From Monosiga brevicollis MX1 (lineage: Eukaryota; Opisthokonta; Choanoflagellata; Craspedida; Salpingoecidae): a DNA stretch of 29,350 nt. A program made the translations under genes and the position numbers. The notes below the pieces were generated by a model, which was not told where the DNA came from, searched no databases, and worked only from the letters and a program-made list of their open reading frames with translations. This document shows positions 8,519 through 29,350 of the stretch, in pieces. The DNA is taken from assembly GCF_000002865.3 (NCBI RefSeq), contig NW_001865040.1:2268135-2297484 (forward strand), given 5' to 3'. Within the stretch, counting starts at the first letter, position 1, and each line of letters begins with the position of its first letter.

Positions 8519-9412
8519 ATGGCGCCTTTGGTGACGATCGTGACGGGCAACTCCAACTCTGGAGCCCAGGCAGTGCACTCGCTGATGGGCAAGTATCGCG
8601 GGCAATGCCGAGTGCGAGCCTGCTTTCGCAGCGCCGCAAAGGCCGAGCCTTTTGTATCGGCATATGGCCAAGCAACTGATCTCTTCGAGTCTGTCGTGGG
8701 CATTGATGCCGCCGACCCCAAGTCACTTGTCCCTGCCTTTGAAGGGGCACGTTTTGCCGTTATTGTCACGCCGCATGACCACGCTCGCGGCATGGCCCAG
8801 GATGCGGAGCTGAGCAACAACATGATCGATGCCGCAGTTGCGGCTGGTGTGGAGCACATCATCTATGTCGGCAGCTGGACTGTGATTGACAAGTCGATGG
8901 GTGCCATCCCCGCTCGTTTCTTGGCTACCGAGGAGCATCTGCGTGAGCTGGGTGAAGCAGGTCGCGTGCGGTGGACCTCACTGCGCAGTGGTTTTTTCAA
9001 CCAGAATCTCATTCTGATGCTGAAGCCTCAAATCCAAGCCAGTGGTCAAGTGTTCTTCCCCAACATCAAGGGAGCCCCTGTGGACCCTGGGGACATGGGT
9101 CGAGTGGCGGCCGCCATTGCCACCAGTGCCGACGCGCAAGTGCACCATGGTCAGTACTATCAAATCTCCGGCCCCGTGGTTATGACCACGGCCGAGATGA
9201 CGACCAAGTTAGCAGCCGCCATGGGCACCACGGCCTCTTTCACGCCCGTGCCAGCCAGTAGCATGGAGCAAATTCCACCACCCGTGCGCGATCTGCTGGT
9301 CTGGATGGAGACGCACGACATTCCCTTTTCCGATGTCACTGCCCGCCTGACGGGTGGTGAGCACACCACGCTCGATGCTTGGCTGGAAGCCAATGCCGAC
9401 CTGCTGCAGTGA
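8519..9412 (+). CDS. NmrA-like NAD(P)-binding Rossmann-fold protein, 297 aa
   Basis: A single exon from ATG 8519 to TGA 9410-9412. The N-terminus has a beta strand and a glycine-rich dinucleotide loop, VTGNSNSGAQAV, which is the atypical short-chain dehydrogenase form seen in NmrA/HSCARG and isoflavone-reductase-like proteins. It continues with FEGARFAVIVTP, AAVAAGVEHIIYVGSWTV and a region LRSGFFNQNL that match the family's order. The C-terminal half (DPGDMGRVAAAIA and YYQISGP) is the substrate-domain part. Such proteins act as redox sensors or as reductases and I cannot choose between these. The upstream in-frame stretch to 8402 is open, but the ATG at 8519 sits right before the conserved strand. 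Confidence 0.88.
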   Translation: MAPLVTIVTGNSNSGAQAVHSLMGKYRGQCRVRACFRSAAKAEPFVSAYGQATDLFESVVGIDAADPKSLVPAFEGARFAVIVTPHDHARGMAQDAELSNNMIDAAVAAGVEHIIYVGSWTVIDKSMGAIPARFLATEEHLRELGEAGRVRWTSLRSGFFNQNLILMLKPQIQASGQVFFPNIKGAPVDPGDMGRVAAAIATSADAQVHHGQYYQISGPVVMTTAEMTTKLAAAMGTTASFTPVPASSMEQIPPPVRDLLVWMETHDIPFSDVTARLTGGEHTTLDAWLEANADLLQ

Positions 9413-9610: not shown

Positions 9611-10437
9611 TCAACAAAGATAATTCAATACAGCCTTGTATTTTTTTCTTCTGTTCAAGGTCTTGATGGCTCAGTGCCGTTCTCCGGCCGAACGTGCCGT
9701 CTTCCCTGCCGTCCTCCTGCCGTCAACTGTCAAATGATCGTGCTGACAATGACCGTAAGGGCGCTTTCAAGCGCAACTTCGAGCCGGAGTTGAACGCGGT
9801 CAGCATTCGTGTACATGAGCTGCAAATTGTTCAAAAGGGGAATCGAGTATCACATCCGCCTTGATATTATCCCAAAGTATAATTAATGTTATACTATTAT
9901 GATAAGCAAGTGTGATAAAGTACAACATAGTGGCTTGTGCCATTTTGTCATCAAGCGAAAAGCAACACACAAACGAAAGAACCAAAGAAAGAACAAAAAG
10001 AAAGAACAAAAGAAAGAACAAAAGAAAGAACAAAAGAAAGAACAAAAGAAAGAACAAAAGAACAACAAGAACAAAAGAAAGAACAACAAGAACAAAAGAA
10101 AGAACAACAAGAACAAAAGAAAGAACAACAAGAACAAAAGAAAGAACAAAAGAAAGAACAAAAGAAAGAACAAAAGAAAGAACAACACCTCCAAAAGCCG
10201 TCAAGCCGGCAAAAGGGTCAGTGATCTTACTCGTTGACCATTACCAAGTGAAGGAAGGGGGGAGGTTATTTTATTTTTAAAGCGTTTAGGGTCGAGTCCG
10301 CGCGGCCTTCTTCAAGGGTACTGGACCTTTGAGTGATTTTGGCAGCCAGGCGCCCGACCTTCTCCTGGGTTGGGGTTTCCGAGAGTCATTGCATCGGTGC
10401 TGCGCTGTTGCTGCGTTGTGTAAGAATTACCGTTGAG
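9413..10437. other. Repeat-filled spacer with a possible exon fragment
   Basis: It contains the second copy of the NmrA 3' end, a 12/15-bp minisatellite (9960-10185), and AT-rich sequence at 9840-9910. Between about 9675 and 9875 the plus strand has a roughly 65-codon open frame ending at TGA. The frame includes KGAFKRNFEPEL and VHELQIVQKG, which looks protein-like but has neither a clear start nor a recognised family. The 3' part before 10438 is the probable promoter of the JmjC gene. Confidence 0.45.
9960..10185. repeat. AAAGAAAGAACA minisatellite
   Basis: Tandem 12-bp units (AAAGAAAGAACA) with an inner block of 18-bp units that add an extra AACAAG. The array reads as Lys-Glu-Gln/Arg-Thr-rich frames on the plus strand and Leu/Phe-rich frames on the minus strand. 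None has a start, stop or conservation context that suggests a gene. Confidence 0.93.
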
Positions 10438-11698
10438 ATGACATCGCGGCCCGTTAGGGCCGTGGCCCTGTGGGCGATTGTGGCCGTGGTGCAGTTGAAT
10501 GCAAACACGGCACGCGCCGTGCCTCTGGACGATGCCGTTACAACGACACTGGATGCTTCTCCAAATGAGGCCAATCCCATCCGCATGGTCGACCCCATGC
10601 TTCAGATCGATACCGTGGTTGTTCCCACTTTGCCCGAATATGCCGACTGGCCGCTTTTGCACAGGCAGCTTGATCAGACGATGGATCAGCTCCTTGAGAC
10701 TGGCGTCGTCTCCTTACGCGATAGCACCGGCGAGATCGTCGTCTTGGATTCAATTGATGGAGCCGTCGAGGGCACAACCGTGGACAGTCTTCTCGCAGCT
10801 GGCTACTCGCTTGTGATCAAACCTGAGCATGAGCCCTCCTTGTCCTCGTCCATGCACGCATTTACCGTCAGCAACGTTATTTCTCAGCAGATCCAAGCGC
10901 ATCTGGGTGTGGTCATGTCGGAACACTTTTACATCTCCCCGCCCAGCCAGCGGGCCCTGAGCCCGCATACTGATGGTGGCGATGTCTTTGTGCACCAGTG
11001 GGCTGGCAGCAAGCTTTGGACCCTCTGCGTGCCCAAAGCGCCCGATTGCCAGGATTGCACGTTCGCAGATTTGGCTCTCCGCGCCGAACTGGCCAAGTCG
11101 GCCTTCCAAGGTCTGTCATCGTTTCATTGTCAGCAGGCCCTCTGGATTAAGCGAGCTCGCTCAAGGTGCCTGATTTCCAAAACACTCGAGCAGTATATCT
11201 CTTTGCGCTGGACGGCAAATCACACTTTCACACTTGCTCACCCCTGTACACTTGCTTTGGCTGTCCCCGCCCAAAGGCTGCACCGCCTATACGGACGAAC
11301 AACTTGCCGGAATGGAATGCCGCACCTTGGATCTGCAAGAAAATGAGCTGCTTTACGTTCCGCGCGGTGTCGTCCACTATGCCCGAGCCAACTCGACCGG
11401 CCTGAGCGCCCACGCCACCTACCAAGTGGTGCCGCCCTCTGCCACCTGGATCGACATGGTGGTCGATGAATGTAGCCTCGCAGCAACCACGCGGGCTTGC
11501 AACGAGTTGAAGAATCAGCTTCTCCAAGCCGACCTGGGTTTTCGGTGGCTCAACTTTCGCTTTAAAGACGTCCACGTGGCGCCCGTTCTGCCCAACAAAC
11601 TCAACGCCTCGGAATATACGCTTCCCTCCACTCGCCTCGCCTCGCTCATTACCCGCCCGGCCTCCAATGACGAATCAGTCACGCGCACGGTTTGTTGA
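10438..11698 (+). CDS. Signal-peptide-bearing JmjC/cupin-fold oxygenase-like protein, 2 exons, 364 aa
   Basis: Exons 10438-11110 and 11277-11698, joined in phase 1, with TGA at 11696-11698. Residues 1-27 form a signal peptide (basic start, Ala/Val/Leu core, ending ANTARA). The JmjC core resembles NO66/MINA-type Cupin_4 proteins. It has SPHTDGGDVFVHQWAGSKLW, with the HxD iron ligands at H177 and D179, and LLYVPRGVVHYA, with the distal ligand H258. This makes it a likely Fe(II)/2-oxoglutarate oxygenase, entering the secretory pathway rather than the nucleus. A possible donor (ACG|GTTTGT at 11689/11690) just before the stop joins in phase 0 to an exon at 11778, so this may be the N-terminal part of the next gene. 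The intron 11111-11276 was chosen by phase and by family alignment. Confidence 0.8.
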
Positions 11699-11777
11699 TA
11701 TGTTCTAGCCTGTGTCCCGATGTTGGTGTTGTGTGCTCGTCACCGCGTCCATAACCTTACATTCCTGAAAATCGCAG

Positions 11778-14700
11778 CGCCGTTCCTCGGATCGAGGCTA
11801 CAGCGGCAGAGGTTGTGGCTCATGCAACCAACGTTGCGACGACAGCTGGTTTGTCATTGCTCACGATTTGACGCTGCCCTTGAGTGAGCGAGTATGCGGG
11901 CGAGTTGCCAGAGTTGTTAATCGGTACGCATTCAACATTCTGCTGTTTATATTTGCAGTGATGGGAGCTGCGATTGGGTTGTGGGCAGCTGCGATGATAG
12001 CTGCGATAGCAGTTGCGGTATGTCATGCCATCAATGTGCAGCGCCTTACACCGACCATTCCCTATCGTGCTTTTTGTGTCTTACCGTACCTTGCATTTCT
12101 GGCTTTGTTGGCAGACTCGGTCGTTTGCAACTCTGGTTGCCGTTGCCCTCAAGGCTGGGGCAGCCTATTCGGTTACTGCAATTGTTCGTGTCTTAAAATG
12201 GATTCCTCGTGTCTCTCTATGTTTGCAACGCTCAGGCGCATTTGCGCAGATAGTTTGCCTCATTTTCTTGTCTGGCGCTTTGTGTCTATGCGTGGGTCGT
12301 GTTTCTGTCTGATTAGCTTGTAACTCTGGGCTGGACACTGTCAACGATGTGTGCAGTACGTTTTGACCCGACATCCGAGCCTTGCTGCCGAGCCTTTCTG
12401 GCTCTGCCATTGGTGCTGGTACGCTCAGCCAGCGTTTGTTTTTGCTCACCATGGCTGATCACGCTGACTTGCAGGTACTTGCGGCAAGGGCACCTACCAC
12501 GATATGGTTCGCTGTTTGAGCTGCGGTGCTGGTATGTGTTTATGTGCCATGCATTCCTTAGTGGTGCTAAGAGACCGTGACCATGCTGCACAACATACAC
12601 TAGCTTTGAACCCCAAATCCACACCAGACCCCGAGCCTCGCCCTCTTCATTCGTGTTCTTCGTTTCCGAATTTAGGTACCTACCAGGACAGTGCCAGCCA
12701 TCTTTCTACCTCATGCAAACCAAAGAGCCGCTGTCCTGCTGGTACTTACGACGCCAACGGTGGCAGGTACGGATGTTTTTGTCTGTATTTTTAGTGTTTG
12801 TCTGTATACCACGCCTTGTCGCCTTTGCTTTAGTATGATGGAGTCCTACTCTAACGTCCATCTTGTCATATCCCATCGCGTTGTCCCTGTCCAACGCAGC
12901 TCGTCTTCAAACACAAACTGCCTTGCTTGCCCGGCGGGCTCCTACCAAGATGCGACCAACCACCTGGAGACTTCTTGCAAGACCAAGACCAACACGTGCC
13001 CTGTTGGCCACTACGCCTCAAACGGTGGCAGCACTACAAGTGATCGCATCTGCGCCGTGTGTCCCGACGGTATGCCAATCCCTCGAACTGTCCCTGTATC
13101 ATTTTGTCTCGGATACATGATTATATGCGCATCCCCCCCGGCCCTTTGTTTTATCAACCCGCTTGATAATCGTTGGTCAATTCCCAGGTACTTGGATGAA
13201 TATCAATGGTAACTCAGCCCAGCAGTGCTATCAGAAATCTGTGCCATGCTCACCTGGCCAAGAGGTTTCAAACAAGGGTGACAAGACGGCCGACAACATT
13301 TGCGCCGCCTGCAGCTCAAGTGCGCACCATTTTTTTGTTTGCGCACTATTTCTTTGCCTGCTTGAAGGTGTTGGACACAACTGCTCATTGTCAACTCATT
13401 CTCCAACACCCGTCTCCAATGGCTTTGTTAGATTCATATCAACCCAGCCAGGGCTTGGCTGTACAGTGTACACGGAAGACTAACACTTGCAAAGCCGGCG
13501 AATATGTGACCAATCCAGATTCCCTGACCTCGGATTACTCCTGTGGTATCTGCGCTGCCGGTACGCCATCCCGTACTTTAGCCCTTCCGCCCCTCCACAT
13601 CGTCCTTTTGGCATGACTGCGCGCTCTGACACGTTTGTACTTGCGCAACATTTCGATTGGATTGCACGGCATGATGGCGGTCTCGATCACCAAGGCACTG
13701 TTCAACCCAGCAGCTCACACACTTCCTCAACATGCCACGGTCAGGGCTTCCGAGTTGCTTGCTCACCCGTTGCCTCCGCCATGACCTTTTCCTCTTTGTC
13801 CTCCTTCGTTTTACGGCTCTACGCCCAGCTCTCCACGTTAACGTGTGTGCCTCACGACTTGTCGATGATTTTGATTCTGCAGCGTGTGCGGCCGGCAATT
13901 ACCAAGCCAGTGCAGGGCAAACCTCTTGTTTGCCCTGCCCAGTTGACTCGTATTCTGATACCTCCGCAGCTACCTCGTGCAAACGTATGTTGATGGAGAC
14001 CACTTCGTTTCCTCCTTTGTCGTAACCTTTTTGGTCTTCAGCACCAAAGGATGCTCTTCTGGGTATTGACTTGGCAACGTGCGCGCCCCTCATGCGTTCC
14101 CGTGGGCGTGTTCATCTTCCTTGTTCAGCTTGCGATCTCAGCCATGGCGCTTATCAGGATCAAACCGGTCAAACTTCATGTGACGGCTGTGGAGTTGGTA
14201 CGTGTATTCATTCTGCTTCTCAAAAGCCTACTCAGATAAGCCATACGCAACGCCCTGATTGTATCGCTGATGCCTTAACTTGCGAAATTCTCAGGTTCGC
14301 GTCTGGATTTGACGACGTCAAGTTGCATCCCCTGTGCTGCTGGCAAATATCAAGGCCAGCCCTACAGTACTGTCTGCATCGATTGTGCAGCGGGCAAGTA
14401 TAGCCTTGCGAGCGCGTCAGTGTGCTCGGCTTGCCCAGCTGGCACCTACTCGGAGCTGGCTCAAGCCTCGGCGTGTACACAGTGTCCCGCGGGCAAGTTC
14501 TCTGCCAGTGAGAATTCAATCTCGTGTGCCCGCTGCTCTGCTGGCACTTACCAAGCACAGGCTGGCCAATCCGACTGCCAGACCTGCCAAGCTGGCTATA
14601 CTGTCAATCCCGATTTTACTCAATGCACTGGTGCGATTGACCCTCTGCTGGCACTGGATCGTTTTGGCATGTAGTTGCCAAATCAGTCGCGTACTGAGTT

Positions 14701-17700
14701 TCTGCCCTCGCCTTGTCTGATGTCTGACTTTTGTGCTCACTAGATGTCACGCCGCCCGAGTTGACGTTGGCCCCCAACGCCATCGTCCGGTTCGAAGCTC
14801 TGACCAATACTTTTGTCTATCCTACGGTGACAGCCACGGATACGAGTGGCGAAAGAATTGTCGTGACGCACACCAACAATGTTCAGCCAGGTGAGCCTCT
14901 ACTTTCTTTCTTCATTCTTTAATCCTGGCTCTATGGCCTCTGGGGTCCTGCGTCGTCTGCATGCTTGCTTTATTTTTTGTGGTGGTCATGCGGTGTCTGA
15001 ACGGCATATGCTTCCACTCATCTCCTCTTTGCCCATTGGCTTCTTCTTCTTTGAATCTTGCTTTGGCTAATCTTCAGACGAAGTCGGCACTTATGATGTG
15101 ACCTATTCTGGCGAGGACAGTGCCAAGAACAAGGGTGTCTTGGTTGTTCAGGTGATCATCTTTGCGGCCCGAAAACCGGTCATCGTGCTTCTTGGCCCGG
15201 TGGTCATGACGCTCGAAGTGCACACTCGTTTCAACGACCCCATGGGCTATGTGATCGATGAGGGCGAACCCAACAACCTCAACAACACCCTAGCTAGTAA
15301 CACAAGCGCTCTGGACATTGACACCCTCGGTACTTACTATGTCGTATATTCCATGCACACGCCCGACTCCCAAGGCCTGACCGCCTCGCCTGTGCGGCGC
15401 ACCGTCCATGTCGTCGACACGACGCCTCCCGTAAGTGCCCCACCAACTTTGCTATGCGCTCATACACGTCAGTGGAGTCGTCTTTGTTGAGCAGCATCTC
15501 ACTGTACGCTTATTGCTCACTTGCAATTGATGAATCACAGGTGATCTCGTTGACGCAGGGTGTCAACGTGACCGTTGAGGCGGGTTCCACCTGGTCCGAG
15601 CCTGGGTTTAGCATTCGGGATAACTACGATACCATGGCCATCGGCGACGTGACGGTGGAGCCTGTCGCGCTTAATCTCAAGGTGCCCAACGGCACGGTCC
15701 TCACCGTCGACTACATGGCTACCGATCGCAGCGGCAACGCCGTTTCCATCACACGCTATGTTCTTGTGCTGGATCGCCTCGCACCCACCATCACCCTGCT
15801 CAACGCCACCCGGCTGACTGCCGAGGCGGGTGACTTGTACTTTGAGTTCGATGCGGTGGCCGAGGATCAGTTGGATGATGATGTTGACCTGAGCATCACC
15901 TACCCAGATGGCGTCACCGTTGGTGGTGAATTGCAGCCTCCGTCTTTGCCCTTTGATTACAGCATTGTTTACACTGCCCGAGATGATGTTGGGAACACGG
16001 CTCATGCCACTCGCACCCTGACCGTGGTGGACACCAAGGCTCCCAGCCTTGAAGCCATCACCTCGGAGGTACACCTCGAGGCCGGTGCCGCCTATGCCAT
16101 CAATGCTTCGTGGTATTCCGTGCGCGACAACTACAAGGCCACGCCCACCATCTCCACCAACGTGTCGGCGCTGCCGCGCACCCACGTGATGACGCCCTAT
16201 CGTGCCAACGTGCAAATCACTGCCACCGATTCGCAAGGCAATCGAAACGCCACCTCGCTGCGAGTGCTCTTGGTGGATACTACCGCCCCCATGTTGACTT
16301 TGATCACCTCCAACGTCACCTCGGGCACTGATTTTAAAATTAGCGACCTCGTGACTGCCTACGACAGCAATGATGGGGTGTTGGACAGCGTTGTGGATAT
16401 GAACACCCACGGTACGAACGTGCTTGATCTACCCTCAACCCCAACCTGCCCCGTCGATCGAATCCGTTCCGCTGCGTCCAACGCCTATCAGCAGGCGCGC
16501 GCGGAGCGCATTCGCAGCACCAACACTCAGGTCGTAGGTGATGCGCCGGCCGGCAGCACCTACACTGTCGACTTTATTGTCACCGATGCGGCTGGCAACT
16601 CTGACTCCCTGCGCGGCGTGGTACTTACACTGCGCGATGATACAGCGCCTGTCATTGCCACCTCGGGCACGCCCACCGACCAGATTGAATACACGCGCGC
16701 AGCCAACCAGCTCGAGCTGCCTCTCACTGCATCTGACAACCTCGATGGCGATATCTCTTCTTGGGTTTGTCTGAGCGTGGCACGTTATGCTCCGCGCACG
16801 GCCGAGAGGACCCCAAATGTCTCGCGAACCGGATTGCTCGAGCCAGTGAGCCACAACTTCAACGACTTTGCTGAGGCGGGTCGCCCTTGGGGTGCCTCGG
16901 GCGGACGCCCCTTGCTTCTTCTTGACGAGCCTGTGGGAACGCTCTATGTTGTCAATGCGAGTGTTATGGACGGAGCGGGCAACACGGCGACACGCACCTT
17001 CCGCTACCTCATCGTGGATACGACTCCCCCTGTCCTCACACTCACATACCCCGGCAGCTACCATGTGCCCTACGACACCACCTTTATTGATCCAGGGTTC
17101 ACCGTGTTTGATGAGTCAGACGACTTGTCAGAGCACGTGCTCGTGTTGAATGCAGACCGTGTGAATCCGCGATTCCCTGGCACATACGTAGTTCAATACC
17201 GCACCAACGATCGGTATGGCAACCCGGCAGAGGCAGCGCGCTCCGTGATTGTGGACAACTTTACACTCCCAGCCGATGATGCCATCGTCACCATCGAGTA
17301 TGCGGCGAGCATCAGCCTAGCACCTTTTGCGCGTGCCTTTGAGGAGCAGCTTCGTGGTGCGCTGGGCTATCCATACATCTTTGTTGTCGGTCGCCATGCC
17401 GGTGCCGACACAACTGAGGATCGATTCAACACGCTTCCCGGCTCGGCGTCTAGCAGCAGCTCCCGCCGTCGCTCCCTGCAGGCTGCCACGAACACTTCGT
17501 TCGAGCTGTGCATGCGCTCCACGACCACCCTTGCTTGGGTGCCAGCTGAGACACTGGCTGGAATTATTCGAGCCTGGAACAACCCCAATGTGACCGTGAC
17601 CTCGATTCCTCTGCCCCCAGACCCCAACAACGCTGCCAGTGCCTCCACGGGCAACAAGAGTGGTGCTGACGCAGGGCTGATTGGCGCCATCGCAGGAGCT

Positions 17701-19532
17701 GCCGTGGGATTGGTTCTGGTGATCGTCTTGGTGCTGGTGGTGCTCCGACGCCGAAACAGCTCTGCTTCCAAGCAGCTCGCCGCGCCGTCATTCCAAGCCA
17801 ACAGCCACAGCATGGCCAATCCTTTGTTTGACCAGGACGTGTCTGGCTCGGTCCAAGCTTCAACCTATAACCATCTTGCGCTTGACGGCGAGTACCAGGA
17901 TGTGAACCCCGATGATCCGGGCTATGACGATTTTGAGGATCGTCCCGGTTTCGGCTCGGGCCCTGACGAGGATGACATCGATGGCGATGGCGGCTACTTT
18001 TACACGGATGTAGAGGGTGCAGCACCGGATGCCGGCACTGAACGCGCGCACGCCACCTTTGTGAATGAGGCGTACATGAGCGTCGACGATGACTTTAATG
18101 ACAGTAACGAGTATCACGAGGCCGTGCCTCGGGCCACGATGCCGGACGACACCTATGGCGTCGAAGGAGATTACGCGTTGGCTGTTCCGTCGGGTGGGGC
18201 GACGGAGACCACGTATGGTCTCAAGCTGGGCAACGGTGCCTATGGGGCGGATAACGCTTATGACCAGCCCACTTTCATGGCCAGTACATCAGCTGAGTAT
18301 GACGTTCCCATGTCTGCCGACGATAGCCAAGCGCTGGCCAAGGGTTATGCAGTCCCTTCAGTGCGAGATGGTCCGGCTTCGACCTCACACTACGATGTGC
18401 CTTTGTCCTCCATTACCGAACCTGCTCAGTATGCCGCGGTGAGCCATGACGAGGCCGAGCAGACACCGATGTATGGCGAAGGCGCAGCGCCCAAGTCCAT
18501 GTCGCTGACGCTGCAGTNNNNNNNNNNNNNNNNNNNNNNNNNNNNNNNNNNNNNNNNNNNNNNNNNNNNNNNNNNNNNNNNNNNNNNNNNNNNNNNNNNN
18601 NNNNNNNNNNNNNNNNNNNNNNNNNNNNNNNNNNNNNNNNNNNNNNNNNNNNNNNNNNNNNNNNNNNNNNNNNNNNNNNNNNNNNNNNNNNNNNNNNNNN
18701 NNNNNNNNNNNNNNNNNNNNNNNNNNNNNNNNNNNNNNNNNNNNNNNNNNNNNNNNNNNNNNNNNNNNNNNNNNNNNNNNNNNNNNNNNNNNNNNNNNNN
18801 NNNNNNNNNNNNNNNNNTACATTTGGTACCGTGAATGAGGTGGCTGACGACGAGGTGGGCCATCTTTTGTTGATTGAGGAGGCTAGCAAACTCCCCTCGT
18901 ACCGCGGCTCCGCCTCGCGTCGGGATGCGCAGACCGAGTTGGAGACCTTGCCTGTGGGCAGCTATATTTTGCGCTACTCGGACAACACCAAGCAGTTGGT
19001 GCTGAGCGTGCGCTCGCGTTCGCGCGTGCAGCATCACGTTCTCAGCATCAACGCCCAAGACGAGGTGCTTTTCAATGAGAAGGTGATGCCGGGCGCGCGC
19101 GATCTTGCGTCGGCCATGCACATTCTGAGCTCTCCAGAGCTTTATCAAGATTTTCTGAGCGTCCCTCTCTGGACAGCTGATGCAGCAGACACGGCCGAGG
19201 GGCCGGCGGCGGGGCTCGACGGCGAGCCCTACTTTCACGGACAGATTGATCGCTCAGAAGCCGAAAAGCGCCTCTTGGCCAATGGGTCGGATAACGCCTT
19301 TCTGGTGCGCGCTCGATCGGCCGGCTCCTACGCCTTATCCATCCTGAGCCTGAAGAGTAAAGATGCCAAGTGCCACCACCATCTTCTTGAAGTCAACGAG
19401 GAGGGTTTGGTGACGCTTAACAACGACCTTCTTTCTCCGCCCTGCACATCGATTGTGGGTGCAGTGGAGCTGCTCCGTCGCGTCCCGCCCGAGAACATCG
19501 ATCAACCGCAGGTGCCAGTCGCCCGCACTTAG
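11778..19532 (+). CDS. Transmembrane protein with cysteine-rich modules, Ig-like repeats, tyrosine-rich tail and two SH2 domains; N-terminus unresolved, gap inside
   Basis: Exons 11778-11923, 11959-12017, 12115-12183, 12475-12531, 12676-12766, 12900-13069, 13188-13319, 13432-13560, 13695-13739, 13883-13984, 14042-14197, 14295-14630, 14744-14890, 15078-15430 and 15541-19532, all phase-consistent. The ectodomain has small Cys-rich and TNFR-like repeats, then GCC2/GCC3-type repeats (CPAGTY, CPAGKF, CSAGTY) at 14295-14630. About seven Ig-like repeats of the HYR/DUF5011 kind follow, marked by VDTTPPV and DNLDGD motifs (14744-17270). A transmembrane helix lies at about 17674-17751, followed by RRR. 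The tail carries many tyrosines, including YDVP (twice), YAVP and YDQP. After the gap, an SH2 domain with YILRYS (about 18891-19150) and a second with FLVRARS (about 19230-19490) end at TAG 19530-19532. No kinase domain is visible. It probably acts as a phosphotyrosine scaffold at the plasma membrane. Confidence 0.82.
14295..14630 (+). other. Exon with about five GCC2/GCC3 cysteine-rich repeats
   Basis: Within the SH2 receptor gene. Repeats of about 24 residues follow the pattern C-x2-C-x-A-G-[KT]-[YF]-x7-9-C (CIPCAAGKYQ, CIDCAAGKYS, CSACPAGTYS, CTQCPAGKFS, CARCSAGTYQ). This is the GCC2/GCC3 (ephrin-receptor-like) module of extracellular proteins. It is flanked by phase 1 introns on both sides. 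Confidence 0.85.
17674..17751 (+). other. Transmembrane segment of the SH2 receptor-like protein
   Basis: About 24 hydrophobic residues (GLIGAIAGAAVGLVLVIVLV and on) end in VVLRRR. They divide an Ig-like repeat ectodomain from an acidic, tyrosine-rich tail. The basic stop-transfer cluster puts the SH2 side in the cytosol. Confidence 0.9.
18519..18817. other. Assembly gap of 299 N inside the SH2 gene
   Basis: The last bases before the gap still code for the tyrosine-rich tail and those after it for the start of the first SH2 domain. The reading frames on the two sides differ (codons begin at positions 1 modulo 3 before, 0 modulo 3 after). The N count is therefore an estimate, or an intron lies in the gap. 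Confidence 0.98.
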
Positions 19533-25362: not shown

Positions 25363-27323
25363 ATGCATGTGGTTGTGGTGGGCGGCGGTATCATTGGGGC
25401 TTGCTCGGCGTATCAGCTGGCCTGTCGTGGAGCCAAGGTGACGCTGATTGAGCGCACGGGTGTTGCCTGTGCAGCTTCGGGAAAAGCGGGTGCGTCGTCT
25501 GCGGCTTTTGCAAAAGGTTGCATCTCGGGTGGCTGTGCGTCGCTCATTCCACGGCAAATGCGGGGGGCATGGCAAAACAGGAGGGTTTCTGGCCCGTGAC
25601 TGGTGCAATGGAGGACCACTAGAGTCCTTGGCTCGTCGCAGCTTTGATCTTCACGAGTAGGCTGATTTGGCTTTCATTCCTGTCGTTGCCGTCTGACCAC
25701 CACCCAGGGTGATGCGTGCCTCGTTGTCCTTGCCTTATGAGCTGTGTGTTCATGCCGGGGCTAACAGGCAGCTGGCTGCGGCCCACGGCAATCCCTGGGA
25801 GTATCGCCGACTGCGCACGGTAGGCATTAATGTGCTCAAGTCAGCAGGGCGACCTTCGCCTGCGGTGCCGTGGCTGGATGGCGGTGCTGATGGGAAGACG
25901 GAAAACATGGGATCCACGGAAAACACGGCACAGGTGACGCCGGTAAGTCGCGATGATGCTGACAGCTGGCTGGACTCTTTCTTGAGGTCTGAGATCCAAA
26001 GGCAGACCTGTTAAGAGCACACCCCGTGCCCCATGGCGTGTCGCCAAGAAGATCTCACAGACCAATCGTGCCACTGGGACAGGGGTTGTTTACACGCAAG
26101 ATGGTGGAACTGGCCCAGGAGCATGGTGCGCGAGTGCGAGTGGAAACCGTGATCGGACTGAGCTATCGGGAGGGGCTGGCCGAGGTGTGTGGCGTCCAGT
26201 TGGCCACGGGGGAGGCTGTGCCAGCCGATGCGGTGCTGCTTTGCATGGGACCTTGGAGCGGCCAGTGCCGAGAATGGGTGCGAGCGATCACAGCGCCCAG
26301 AATTGGGGGTGAAAAGGCCCATTCGATCGTGGTGCAGCCTGGACCAAGGGCGGACATTGATGGAACGGCCGTTTTTATCAATTACACTCGTCGGGGCAAG
26401 ATGCAGAACCCGGAAATTTATCCACGTCCAGGTATGGGCGCTCGGCAAGCAAGCATGTCGGCTGCCATGGCTGCCAAACTCACCCGTGCAATGGTGCAAA
26501 ATGACTGCAGACGGCAGCGTGTATATGTGTGGCGGGACACACGCGCACACGCCGCTTCCTGCCAACTCGGCTGACGTGGTGCCTACAGAGGGCATTGGTG
26601 CTGAACTGAAGGAGATCATGGGTGAGTGGGGTGCTTTGGGCGAGGCCGATTGTGACAGGCAGGATAGACATGGCGCAGAGGTGAAGATGACATTCGAGGG
26701 GCTGCTAGATGGGGTGGGCCATCTGGGTGGGATCCGGTCGAAACCTCGATACGCTAATGCTTCTTGCTCGGTTGAATATGGGGGCAGACGCATGCTCCAG
26801 TGCACTGCAAGATGCTGAAGTGACTGTCGTGCAGGTGCGAATCGGCTTTGGTGCGTGGCGGGAGAGGCTTTTGGTCGCATGCTCATGTCACTTTGAGTGT
26901 GTGGGAGATAGGCATGCTATCTACCCATGCCTGACTCGGGCGTTCCATTTATAGGGCCGTTGCAAAAGGTACGTTGCAGCCGCGCCCCGACTGCTTTTCG
27001 CAGCTAGGGCGATGCTGTCCGCACGTCAGCGTCTGAAGGGGCAGGCTCATTCGGTGATTTGCTGTGTCACAGGGTCTGTTTATGGCTGCGGGCCATACTT
27101 GCTGGGGAATCCTCAACGGTCCCGCTACGGGTGAAGCGATGGCCGGTGAGTGCGGTGGGGAAAAGGCGCTTGCCCTGACTTGCCTCGCGGATGCTTCTTG
27201 GGCGCGAGTGTCTGATAGATTGGGCCTCTTCTTTTTGCCATTCTGCCATGACCAGACATTATCTTAGAGGGGACAGCGCGGCACGTGGATCTTTCCCAGG
27301 TGCAGCCATGGTGCGACCAGTAG
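25363..27323 (+). CDS. FAD-dependent oxidoreductase of the DAO family, 8 exons, about 361 aa
   Basis: Exons 25363-25489, 25581-25656, 25708-25942, 26083-26431, 26511-26621, 26788-26834, 27073-27145 and 27256-27323, phase-consistent, with TAG at 27321-27323. The N-terminus is a classic FAD-binding fold: VVVVGGGIIGACSAYQLA, then VTLIER, then ASGKAGGFLARDWC. It continues with GLFTRKMVELAQEHGARV, AVLLCMGPWSG and EIYPRPDGSVYMCGG. The end has AAGHTCWGILNGPATGEAMA, which closes the FAD site in this family. It resembles the small cytosolic FAD oxidoreductases of fungi (Tda3-like) more than true D-amino-acid oxidases. The substrate is unknown. The stretch 26835-27072 may hide a short exon, because a family block usually found before AAGH is not seen. 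Confidence 0.85.
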
Positions 27324-27692: not shown

Positions 27693-28280
27693 TCATGATG
27701 GCTTGCGCACGACCCGCTTGAAGTAGCGGGGGTGCAGGACGCCGTCTTGTCCAGCCGTGAGGAGCACGCGGTTGCGGGAGATGAAGACGGGGATACCATC
27801 GCGGAGCACTTGGTCGAGGTCGAGGTAGATCCAAACGTTGCAGGTGGTGCGCATACCAGAAATCACCTCACGGCTGCCCGGCTCGGCAGTGCTGAAGTGA
27901 ATGTGCTGGCGGCCCATGGTGCGCAAGCCCTCGCGCTGAATTTGGGCCCAGGCGGCATGATAGGTGCCGTGGACAACCACGGGCCAGTCTGCTGCGCTCA
28001 GGACAGGATCAAGAAGGCTGTCCTCTTGCACATTGAGCGAGTGGCCCTGGGTGGCGCGCACGCGCAGGGGGCCCTCGCGCAGTTCGAAACGGCCCTTGGC
28101 ATCAGTGGCGACAATCTCGCGAACCGTGTCATCGTCCAGATGGCGCAGCTTGTCATGGCGACGCAAATCAGCAGTATGAACAAAGCCATCCTTGCTCATG
28201 GGAACGCCTTCCTTCTCAGCGCCGTGTCGCAGAAGGTACGTCATGGTCTTGGATAGCCGTGTGAGTCGTCGGTCCGCCAT
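27693..28280 (-). CDS. TPT1: NAD+-dependent tRNA 2'-phosphotransferase (Tpt1/KptA family), 195 aa
   Basis: A single exon from ATG (28278-28280) to the stop at 27693-27695, about the length of the compact KptA/Tpt1 proteins. The family's two-lobe layout is present: an N-terminal winged-helix lobe with LLRHG (R18, H19), then a C-terminal ADP-ribosyltransferase-like lobe with RATQGHS (R75), HGTYHAAW and RQHIHF (R124). These correspond to the Arg-His-Arg-Arg set needed for catalysis. The enzyme removes the 2'-phosphate left at the splice junction by fungal-type tRNA ligation, passing it to NAD+ to give ADP-ribose 1'',2''-cyclic phosphate and nicotinamide. It acts in the nucleus or cytosol. No intron is needed, unlike its neighbours. 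Confidence 0.93.
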   Translation of the reverse strand: MADRRLTRLSKTMTYLLRHGAEKEGVPMSKDGFVHTADLRRHDKLRHLDDDTVREIVATDAKGRFELREGPLRVRATQGHSLNVQEDSLLDPVLSAADWPVVVHGTYHAAWAQIQREGLRTMGRQHIHFSTAEPGSREVISGMRTTCNVWIYLDLDQVLRDGIPVFISRNRVLLTAGQDGVLHPRYFKRVVRKPS

Positions 28281-28579
28281 GATCGTCGCTCCTTGCTCTA
28301 CTCTAAACTCAAGTCAGAGGAAGAAAGGGAAAAGGAAAAAAAAATAAAAAATAAAAAACGAATGAAAGCGTTTGGTGTTGCGCGTCGATCGATTGATCGC
28401 TGCGAGGCTGTGGTCTGCCTTGAAGAAGTGCTTGGGCAGATATCCAAGAGAAAAATGCCACCAAAGAGCCAGTCCCACCCACGAGATCAAGTCGGTGCTG
28501 TGAGGTGCGCGCCAGAGGGCGGGAGGAGGTGGAGTCGAGGTGCGCGCAAAAACTTTTTTTTTTGTTATGCAACGGCACC
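28281..28579. promoter_or_regulatory. Probable promoter region of the tRNA phosphotransferase gene
   Basis: 299 bp between the start codon and the inner end of the right repeat arm. It has an A-rich tract (28313-28360) just upstream of the start on the minus strand and a T run near 28554-28563. No consensus element was identified. Confidence 0.35.
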
Positions 28580-28591
28580 AGAATGTACCTT

Positions 28592-28667
28592 AATATGTTG
28601 TTCAGCGGGATAGTTCGGTCACCTCCTTGAAAGTAACATATGTATTCCCTTTTTGTAACAACATATT
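28592..28667. repeat. Hairpin-forming 11-bp inverted repeat inside the right arm
   Basis: Mirror copy of the 715-790 hairpin: 11-bp arms at 28592-28602 and 28657-28667 around a 54-nt loop, close to the inner boundary of the right repeat arm. Confidence 0.7.
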
Positions 28668-29224
28668 GCTCTTGGGATTGAGGCAGGTGCGATTAATTGG
28701 CAGTCAGTATTTCGGGTCGTGCTCGGCGATTCTGTCTGCTGTGCGTTTCAAATCAAGCACAGCAGAAGCGCTAAATTTTTGCGGATCAAACGAGGGTGCT
28801 CTTGTGTTCATACGCTTCCTGTGGATGCCATAGCAGCCCAAAGACCAGAAAATCATTTATTTTGAAATAAATCCCATTTCTTTTCCATACGAAACTTATT
28901 TGGCTTTGACTCTCTAGGGCTACATGGCTCTGATTGGTATGTCAAATGGCAGCGCCATAAGACGAGTCAGCGAAGCAATGAGACAACTTGGTGGGTAGAA
29001 GCAGATGGACAAGACAAGTTCCGATTGATCAATGGTCATTCAAGGTTTATTTCGATTGACAAACGCCCGGGACGATTTTTTTTTCTAAACACTTAGTAAG
29101 CAAGCTGTTTCCTCATTGGGTGGACTTAGACGATTTTCTCTTCTTGGGATGTGGTTGCCACTGCGCCACTCGTGCAAGGTGTGTTCGACGTGGAGACCGA
29201 GTTTGGACGATTGATGGGGAAGAG

Positions 29225-29331
29225 CTACGGTCCACAGCGGCGCTTGAGGCTTCTCGTGTTCGCGCCTCGGTACTTGCATGTGATGTCTCTGATGCCGCCG
29301 TAGACGGCGTGGTGCACGGTGGACTTGTCAC
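29225..29331 (-). CDS. Second copy of the probable last exon in the right repeat arm
   Basis: Exact inverted copy of 51-157, with the splice acceptor just above 29331 and the stop at 29225-29227. The rest of the gene would lie to the right of the window. Because the coding frame, acceptor and poly(A) signal are all preserved, both copies could be functional 3' ends, or both could be part of a repeated element. The opposite strand of this arm is also open for 71 codons (29120-29335), which is probably a shadow. Confidence 0.35.
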
Positions 29332-29350
29332 CTGAATGCAATGATGAAGA

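Follow-up and report, generated by a model that had tools for sequence, protein, structure and literature searches.

The RIOX enzymes, RIOX1/NO66 and RIOX2/MINA53, are intracellular proteins that align over their JmjC core, including the HxD motif, the lysine and the distal histidine, with the amino-terminal domain (the head) of the gene described here, whereas the head has a putative signal peptide, further conserved cysteines and a predicted place on the outside of a transmembrane (TM) receptor. Notch and the insulin receptor are furin-processed receptors with an R-x-[K/R]-R motif between ectodomain modules, as in the present gene, although their domains are unrelated to it and cleavage here is predicted. 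Within the open-licence literature we found no JmjC head on choanoflagellate SH2 or RTK receptors and no extracellular JmjC domain; the figures or supplements of Manning et al. 2008, reportedly the main survey, could name such a head. Publications on choanoflagellate jumonji proteins or Monosiga 2-oxoglutarate oxygenases, judged by titles and the beginnings of abstracts, gave nothing relevant. According to the available text of its paper, JMJD8 resembles the head in being a JmjC protein of the secretory pathway, but it is a JmjC-only protein of the ER lumen and not a receptor domain (PMC5684140). RTKC8 is a choanoflagellate RTK with a similar Cys-rich and HYR ectodomain, but the accessible part of its description has no JmjC domain and does not contain the words 'jumonji' or 'cupin' (PMC10263333). 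A 22-base stretch of the RTKC8 primer from the same source has two exact copies in the genome, and no JmjC_2 match was found on contig C21, the site of an RTKC8 primer match. RTKB2, whose kinase has been studied biochemically with a construct starting at residue 1450, ends in a kinase, whereas the gene described here ends in SH2 domains; the domain list of the RTKB2 figure legend names no JmjC domain and the word 'jumonji' is absent from the portion of the text available (PMC3584944).

The window, meaning the whole stretch of M. brevicollis DNA that was analysed (29,350 nt), contains a JmjC frame with an ATG at 10438, an intron at 11111-11276 and a TGA at 11696-11698. An earlier note on this DNA proposed that this frame and the SH2 protein downstream form a single gene, and the proposal is supported by breaks in conservation, by the order of modules at 22 of the 38 JmjC_2 loci, by a shared 7-kb block and by Pfam matches in one frame. 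The JmjC frame (10438-11698) and the frame encoding the Cys-rich, HYR, TM and SH2 modules are best read as joined through an 88-bp phase-0 intron, and from the sequence it is very probable that a single gene occupies 10438-19532 and encodes a type I receptor that extends from the JmjC head through two SH2 domains, the step from TM to SH2 spanning a gap of Ns. The features of the window are as follows.

8519-9409: frame of an NmrA-like protein
10438-11110, plus strand: exon 1, signal peptide MTSRPVRAVALWAIVAVVQLNANTARA (by eye and hydropathy) and amino-terminal portion of the JmjC head
10966-10974, plus strand: H177-T-D179 of the JmjC head, in exon 1
11277-11689, plus strand: exon 2, remainder of the JmjC head, ending ...SVTRT, phase 0
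11375-11377, plus strand: distal metal-ligand His258, in exon 2
11684-11689 joined to 11778-11783, plus strand: convertase-type site R-T|R-R, made by the splice
11690-11777, plus strand: intron 2, 88 bp, GTTTGT...CGCAG, phase 0, holding the TGA at 11696-11698 that was read as the JmjC stop
11778-11848, plus strand: exon 3, RRSSDRGYSGRGCGSCNQRCDDS, with which the Cys-rich stalk begins
11959-12017, 12115-12183, 12317-12355, plus strand: exons 4-6, Cys-rich
12475-12531, 12676-12766, 12900-13069, 13188-13319, plus strand: exons 7-10, Cys repeats
13432-13560, 13883-13984, 14129-14197, 14295-14630, plus strand: exons 11-14, Cys repeats
14744-14890, 15078-15430, plus strand: exons 15-16, HYR
15541-18517, plus strand: exon 17, Ig-like/HYR repeats, TM and Tyr-rich tail, up to the N gap
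17677-17748, plus strand: TM helix, approximate, from hydropathy
18518-18817: run of 300 N within the cytoplasmic region; the flanking frames disagree at this length
18819-19532, plus strand: two SH2 matches through the stop codon, the better one at 19230-19403
25993-26574: frame of an FAD-dependent oxidoreductase (DAO)
27693-28313: frame of a Tpt1/KptA RNA 2'-phosphotransferase

The joined model has 17 exons, all of its introns are GT-AG, and it reads without a stop for 1962 amino acids up to the N gap. In the translated gene the Pfam matches follow the order JmjC_2, Ephrin_rec_like (within exons 7-14, 12475-14630), HYR and Bact_surface_Ig-like, with SH2 beyond the gap. The TM helix is clear and lies on the opposite side of the 300-N gap from the SH2 domains, while the signal peptide was judged by eye, the hydropathy maximum of the amino terminus being 1.34. 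The Tyr-rich tail has 17 tyrosines in 254 residues, and both SH2 matches contain the SH2 arginine (YILR and FLVR). No kinase domain was matched by Pfam in either translated part of the gene, the 300 N being unreadable. Exon 11959-12017 can be read in two ways, one frame giving a Cys repeat and a second a stretch that resembles a signal peptide.

The head is a RIOX-like domain with an intact HxD...H triad. It matches PF08007 (JmjC_2) with 41.3 bits (cut-off 22), and among solved structures it comes closest to MINA53 (4.8e-18 by profile) and NO66. The metal ligands H177, D179 and H258 are kept, and the lysine after HxD, which we take to be the 2OG lysine, aligns with that of MINA. Among the 22 paralogous loci that carry a Cys-rich module, HxD is present in all 17 whose first half was read (for the other five only the second half was), and the distal-His motif is found in all 22. 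Among alignment rows with a letter at the position, the first histidine is kept in 12/13, the aspartate in 11/12, the distal histidine in 14/17 and the lysine in 11/11; the exceptions are read as rows translated through introns. Seven cysteines and two sequons fit a secreted domain. Over most of the head, from 10600 on, pN/pS is 0.041/0.24 (about 0.17) against the paralogous locus C38 and 0.067/0.457 (about 0.15) against a second paralog, C51, while exons 3-6 are less constrained (weakly against C38, with pN 0.107 and pS 0.12, about 0.9; about 0.39 against C51). Because the Fe(II)- and 2OG-type residues are kept, the head probably still binds both cofactors. It is possible, although we think it the less likely case, that the head serves to bind a ligand, with the JmjC fold kept and catalysis lost; it has no known substrate, and little 2OG or Fe(II) is present outside cells, but the retention of HxD, lysine and distal histidine across the loci and rows counted above, together with the purifying selection seen in pN/pS, speaks against this reading.

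As the earlier note had it, the exon at 11778 has no ATG and a stop lies just upstream (TGA 11766-11768, in its frame), and the distance of 79 bp from the JmjC stop to 11778 checks out. The phase-0 intron of 88 bp was likewise borne out, with GT at 11690, AG at 11776-11777 and no stop in the joined model. Scored with a matrix built without intron 2 itself, the donor at 11690 reaches 8.29, a value attained by 1.8% of the 1786 GT sites in the window, and the acceptor at 11777|11778 reaches 5.14, attained by 8.4% of 1676 AG sites. This acceptor is the third lowest among the 16 of the gene, and its C51 counterpart scores -2.98; use of the next-best AG nearby, at 11810 (4.12), would disrupt the frame of the Cys-rich part. 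The acceptor is weak on its own, and it is the paralog comparison and not the splice score that carries the case for one gene. In an alignment of the window with C38 and C51, exon 2 has an identity to C51 of 0.835, intron 2 of 0.398 and exon 3 of 0.662, gaps are confined to the intron, and coding conservation ends at the donor and restarts at the acceptor. GT and AG are kept in all three loci (ACG|GTTTGT in the window and C38, AAA|GTCAGT in C51; acceptors ...AG|CGCCGT). The stop after the JmjC part differs: C38 has the in-intron TGA of the window, whereas C51 has a TAG five codons in. At the signal-peptide end, identity over the first 250 bases (10320-10569) is just 0.43 to C38 and 0.41 to C51.

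The 39.5-Mb genome was scanned for JmjC_2 matches at E up to 1, which clustered into 38 loci. At 22 of these a Cys-rich module follows the JmjC core on the same strand; it was not seen at the other 16, of which 13 were read for about 1 kb, so that a more distant module would have escaped notice. A single open frame takes in both the distal-His motif and the Cys cluster in 14 of the 22, and for these loci no splice inference is necessary. Three further loci flagged by the one-frame pattern (L011, L067 and L069) were dropped on inspection, their Cys run not being the homologous module. C54b, which is among the 14, has a stop-free 102-bp in-frame intron with a GTGAGT donor at the same phase-0 position, the splice making RSRR. 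At the remaining eight (the window, C38, C51, C47, C12:70k, C44, C34:180k and C28) the join requires splicing past a stop codon or from one frame to another, and in C47 and C12:70k a further splice, as read from the frames, leads to the Cys module. At C54(-), a frame of 696 aa matches both JmjC_2 (31.7 bits, cut-off 22) and Ephrin_rec_like (74.8 bits, cut-off 23.1), the latter being matched in just one of seven frames scanned with Pfam. Ephrin_rec_like occurs within 12 kb downstream on the same strand at 12 of the 38 loci, and upstream or on the other strand at one each (150 of 303 candidates scored); as a sole marker of the partner module it was rejected as too strict. NCBIfam gave no match for the two proteins checked, and no relatives of the C12 head were found among viral contigs.

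The stops that lie early in intron 2 of the window, C38 and C51 mean that retention of this intron would yield the secreted head alone, and a regulated choice could then exist between a soluble head of 364 aa and, upon splicing, the receptor. We consider this unlikely, as the frame is open across the junction at 14 of the 22 loci, where retention could not end the protein, and chance stops are frequent in introns. Two adjacent genes, one for a secreted JmjC protein with its end at 11698 and one for an independently starting SH2 receptor, are very improbable. In favour of this reading, a TGA lies in frame after 11689, the JmjC frame is self-contained (in C38 too), the acceptor at 11778 is weak and the ATG at 11961 opens a signal-peptide-like frame, MGAAIGLWAAAMIAAIAVAV. 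Against it, C51 does not conserve the TGA, the JmjC and Cys modules share one frame in 14 of 22 paralogs, and the ATG at 11961, the sole candidate seen for the separate SH2 start exon that the earlier note had named as its refuting alternative, was rejected, being absent from C38 and C51 and opening a frame that fails to join exon 5 at the GTATGT donor.

In the single-gene model the splice of intron 2 creates V-T-R-T-R-R-S-S, and RTRR is the one place in the 1962 aa of the model where R-x-[K/R]-R occurs; the 1678-aa C51 model also has one occurrence. A furin-type R-x-[K/R]-R is present at the junction in 17 of the 22 loci, RxxR in two (RQSR in C12:30k and RVTR in C34:411k) and a dibasic pair only in three (C32, C46 and C17). 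By chance the motif is expected in about 0.2-0.3% of stretches of 25 residues (0.2% in the shuffled window protein), with the paralogs being related and the loci therefore not independent. The genome has three P_proprotein matches (best 4.8e-17), two of them in very long frames, and cleavage at RTRR by a furin-like convertase is predicted. This site, the receptor family and its tyrosine-kinase members are new points beyond the earlier note.

The inner ends vary among the eight of the 22 loci for which they were worked out. SH2 matches lie downstream on the same strand in the window, C47, C12:70k and C54(-), and tyrosine kinases at a minimum of four loci, C38, C51, C54b and C56 (135 of 686 candidates scored). 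In C38 and C51 the ectodomain, the TM segment and the start of the kinase share one frame, and in C47 the HYR match and the SH2 match each fall in a frame listed with 1385 aa; for C12, C54(-), C54b and C56 the link from JmjC to inner domain is one of proximity alone. A block of about 7 kb is common to the window and the C38 tyrosine-kinase gene, from about 10570 in the JmjC exon to about 17570, before the TM segment, with 84-100% identity per 250-base bin. One ectodomain, head included, is thus carried by a kinase in C38 and, provided that no gene boundary lies within the N gap, by SH2 domains in the window. The similarity of the block breaks off sharply close to the signal peptide and ahead of the TM segment. 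Introns 5-8 are more similar between the window and C38 than the JmjC exons are, as gene conversion could give.

Judged by the match to its RM2 peptides, C51 is the published RTKB2. The tail of C51 has six repeats, the fifth containing SEEVYGAVVD and the sixth EEVYEAIAD, which are the cores of the published peptides, and the order after the head (Cys-rich, Ig-like/HYR, EGF, TM, kinase) is that of published RTKB2. An SCR match in C51 is below threshold (17.3 versus 20.7 bits). Assignment of C51 to RTKC was rejected, as it carries the RTKB2 peptides. The kinase of our C51 model starts near residue 1528, or near 1170 if the head is left out; with the published construct starting at 1450, the residue numbering suggests that the published gene model probably includes most of the head without naming it. 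A fused JmjC-receptor model may therefore already be in databases.

From its amino terminus on, the window receptor would have a signal peptide, a RIOX-like JmjC head, the furin-type site, a Cys-rich and HYR/Ig-like stalk, one TM helix, a Tyr-rich tail and two SH2 domains. We infer that a furin-like convertase would cut RTRR in the secretory pathway, after which the head might stay on the stalk or be released; its odd number of cysteines makes an interchain disulfide possible, which could hold it there. A ligand bound through head and stalk could cluster the SH2 receptor with the C38 kinase, whose ectodomain is near-identical, the kinase would phosphorylate the Tyr-rich tail, and the SH2 domains would lock or extend the complex. 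The head might hydroxylate a partner, or merely sense or bind. Tentatively, and with more doubt than confidence, we suggest a choanoflagellate class of about two dozen receptors with a convertase-clipped, active 2-oxoglutarate oxygenase head, in which tyrosine kinases and SH2 receptors sharing one ectodomain would report on O2, 2OG or iron, or on a hydroxylated ligand. On the one-gene reading, an oxygenase fold forms the ligand-facing tip of phosphotyrosine receptors in the sister group of animals, RTKB2 among them. This offers testable candidates both for the cue that these orphan receptors sense and for the way in which kinase and SH2 receptors with a common ectodomain could pair. RTKB2 is a biochemically studied protist RTK, and the available text of its paper does not name the head (PMC3584944).

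Two repeats were noted around the gene. A tandem array of 18 copies of the 12-bp unit ACAAAAGAAAGA lies shortly upstream of it, at 9969-10185. A perfect inverted repeat of 771 nt occupies 32-802 and 28580-29350, with arms 27.8 kb apart and the second reaching the window edge, and may reflect a recent mobile element or an assembly effect.
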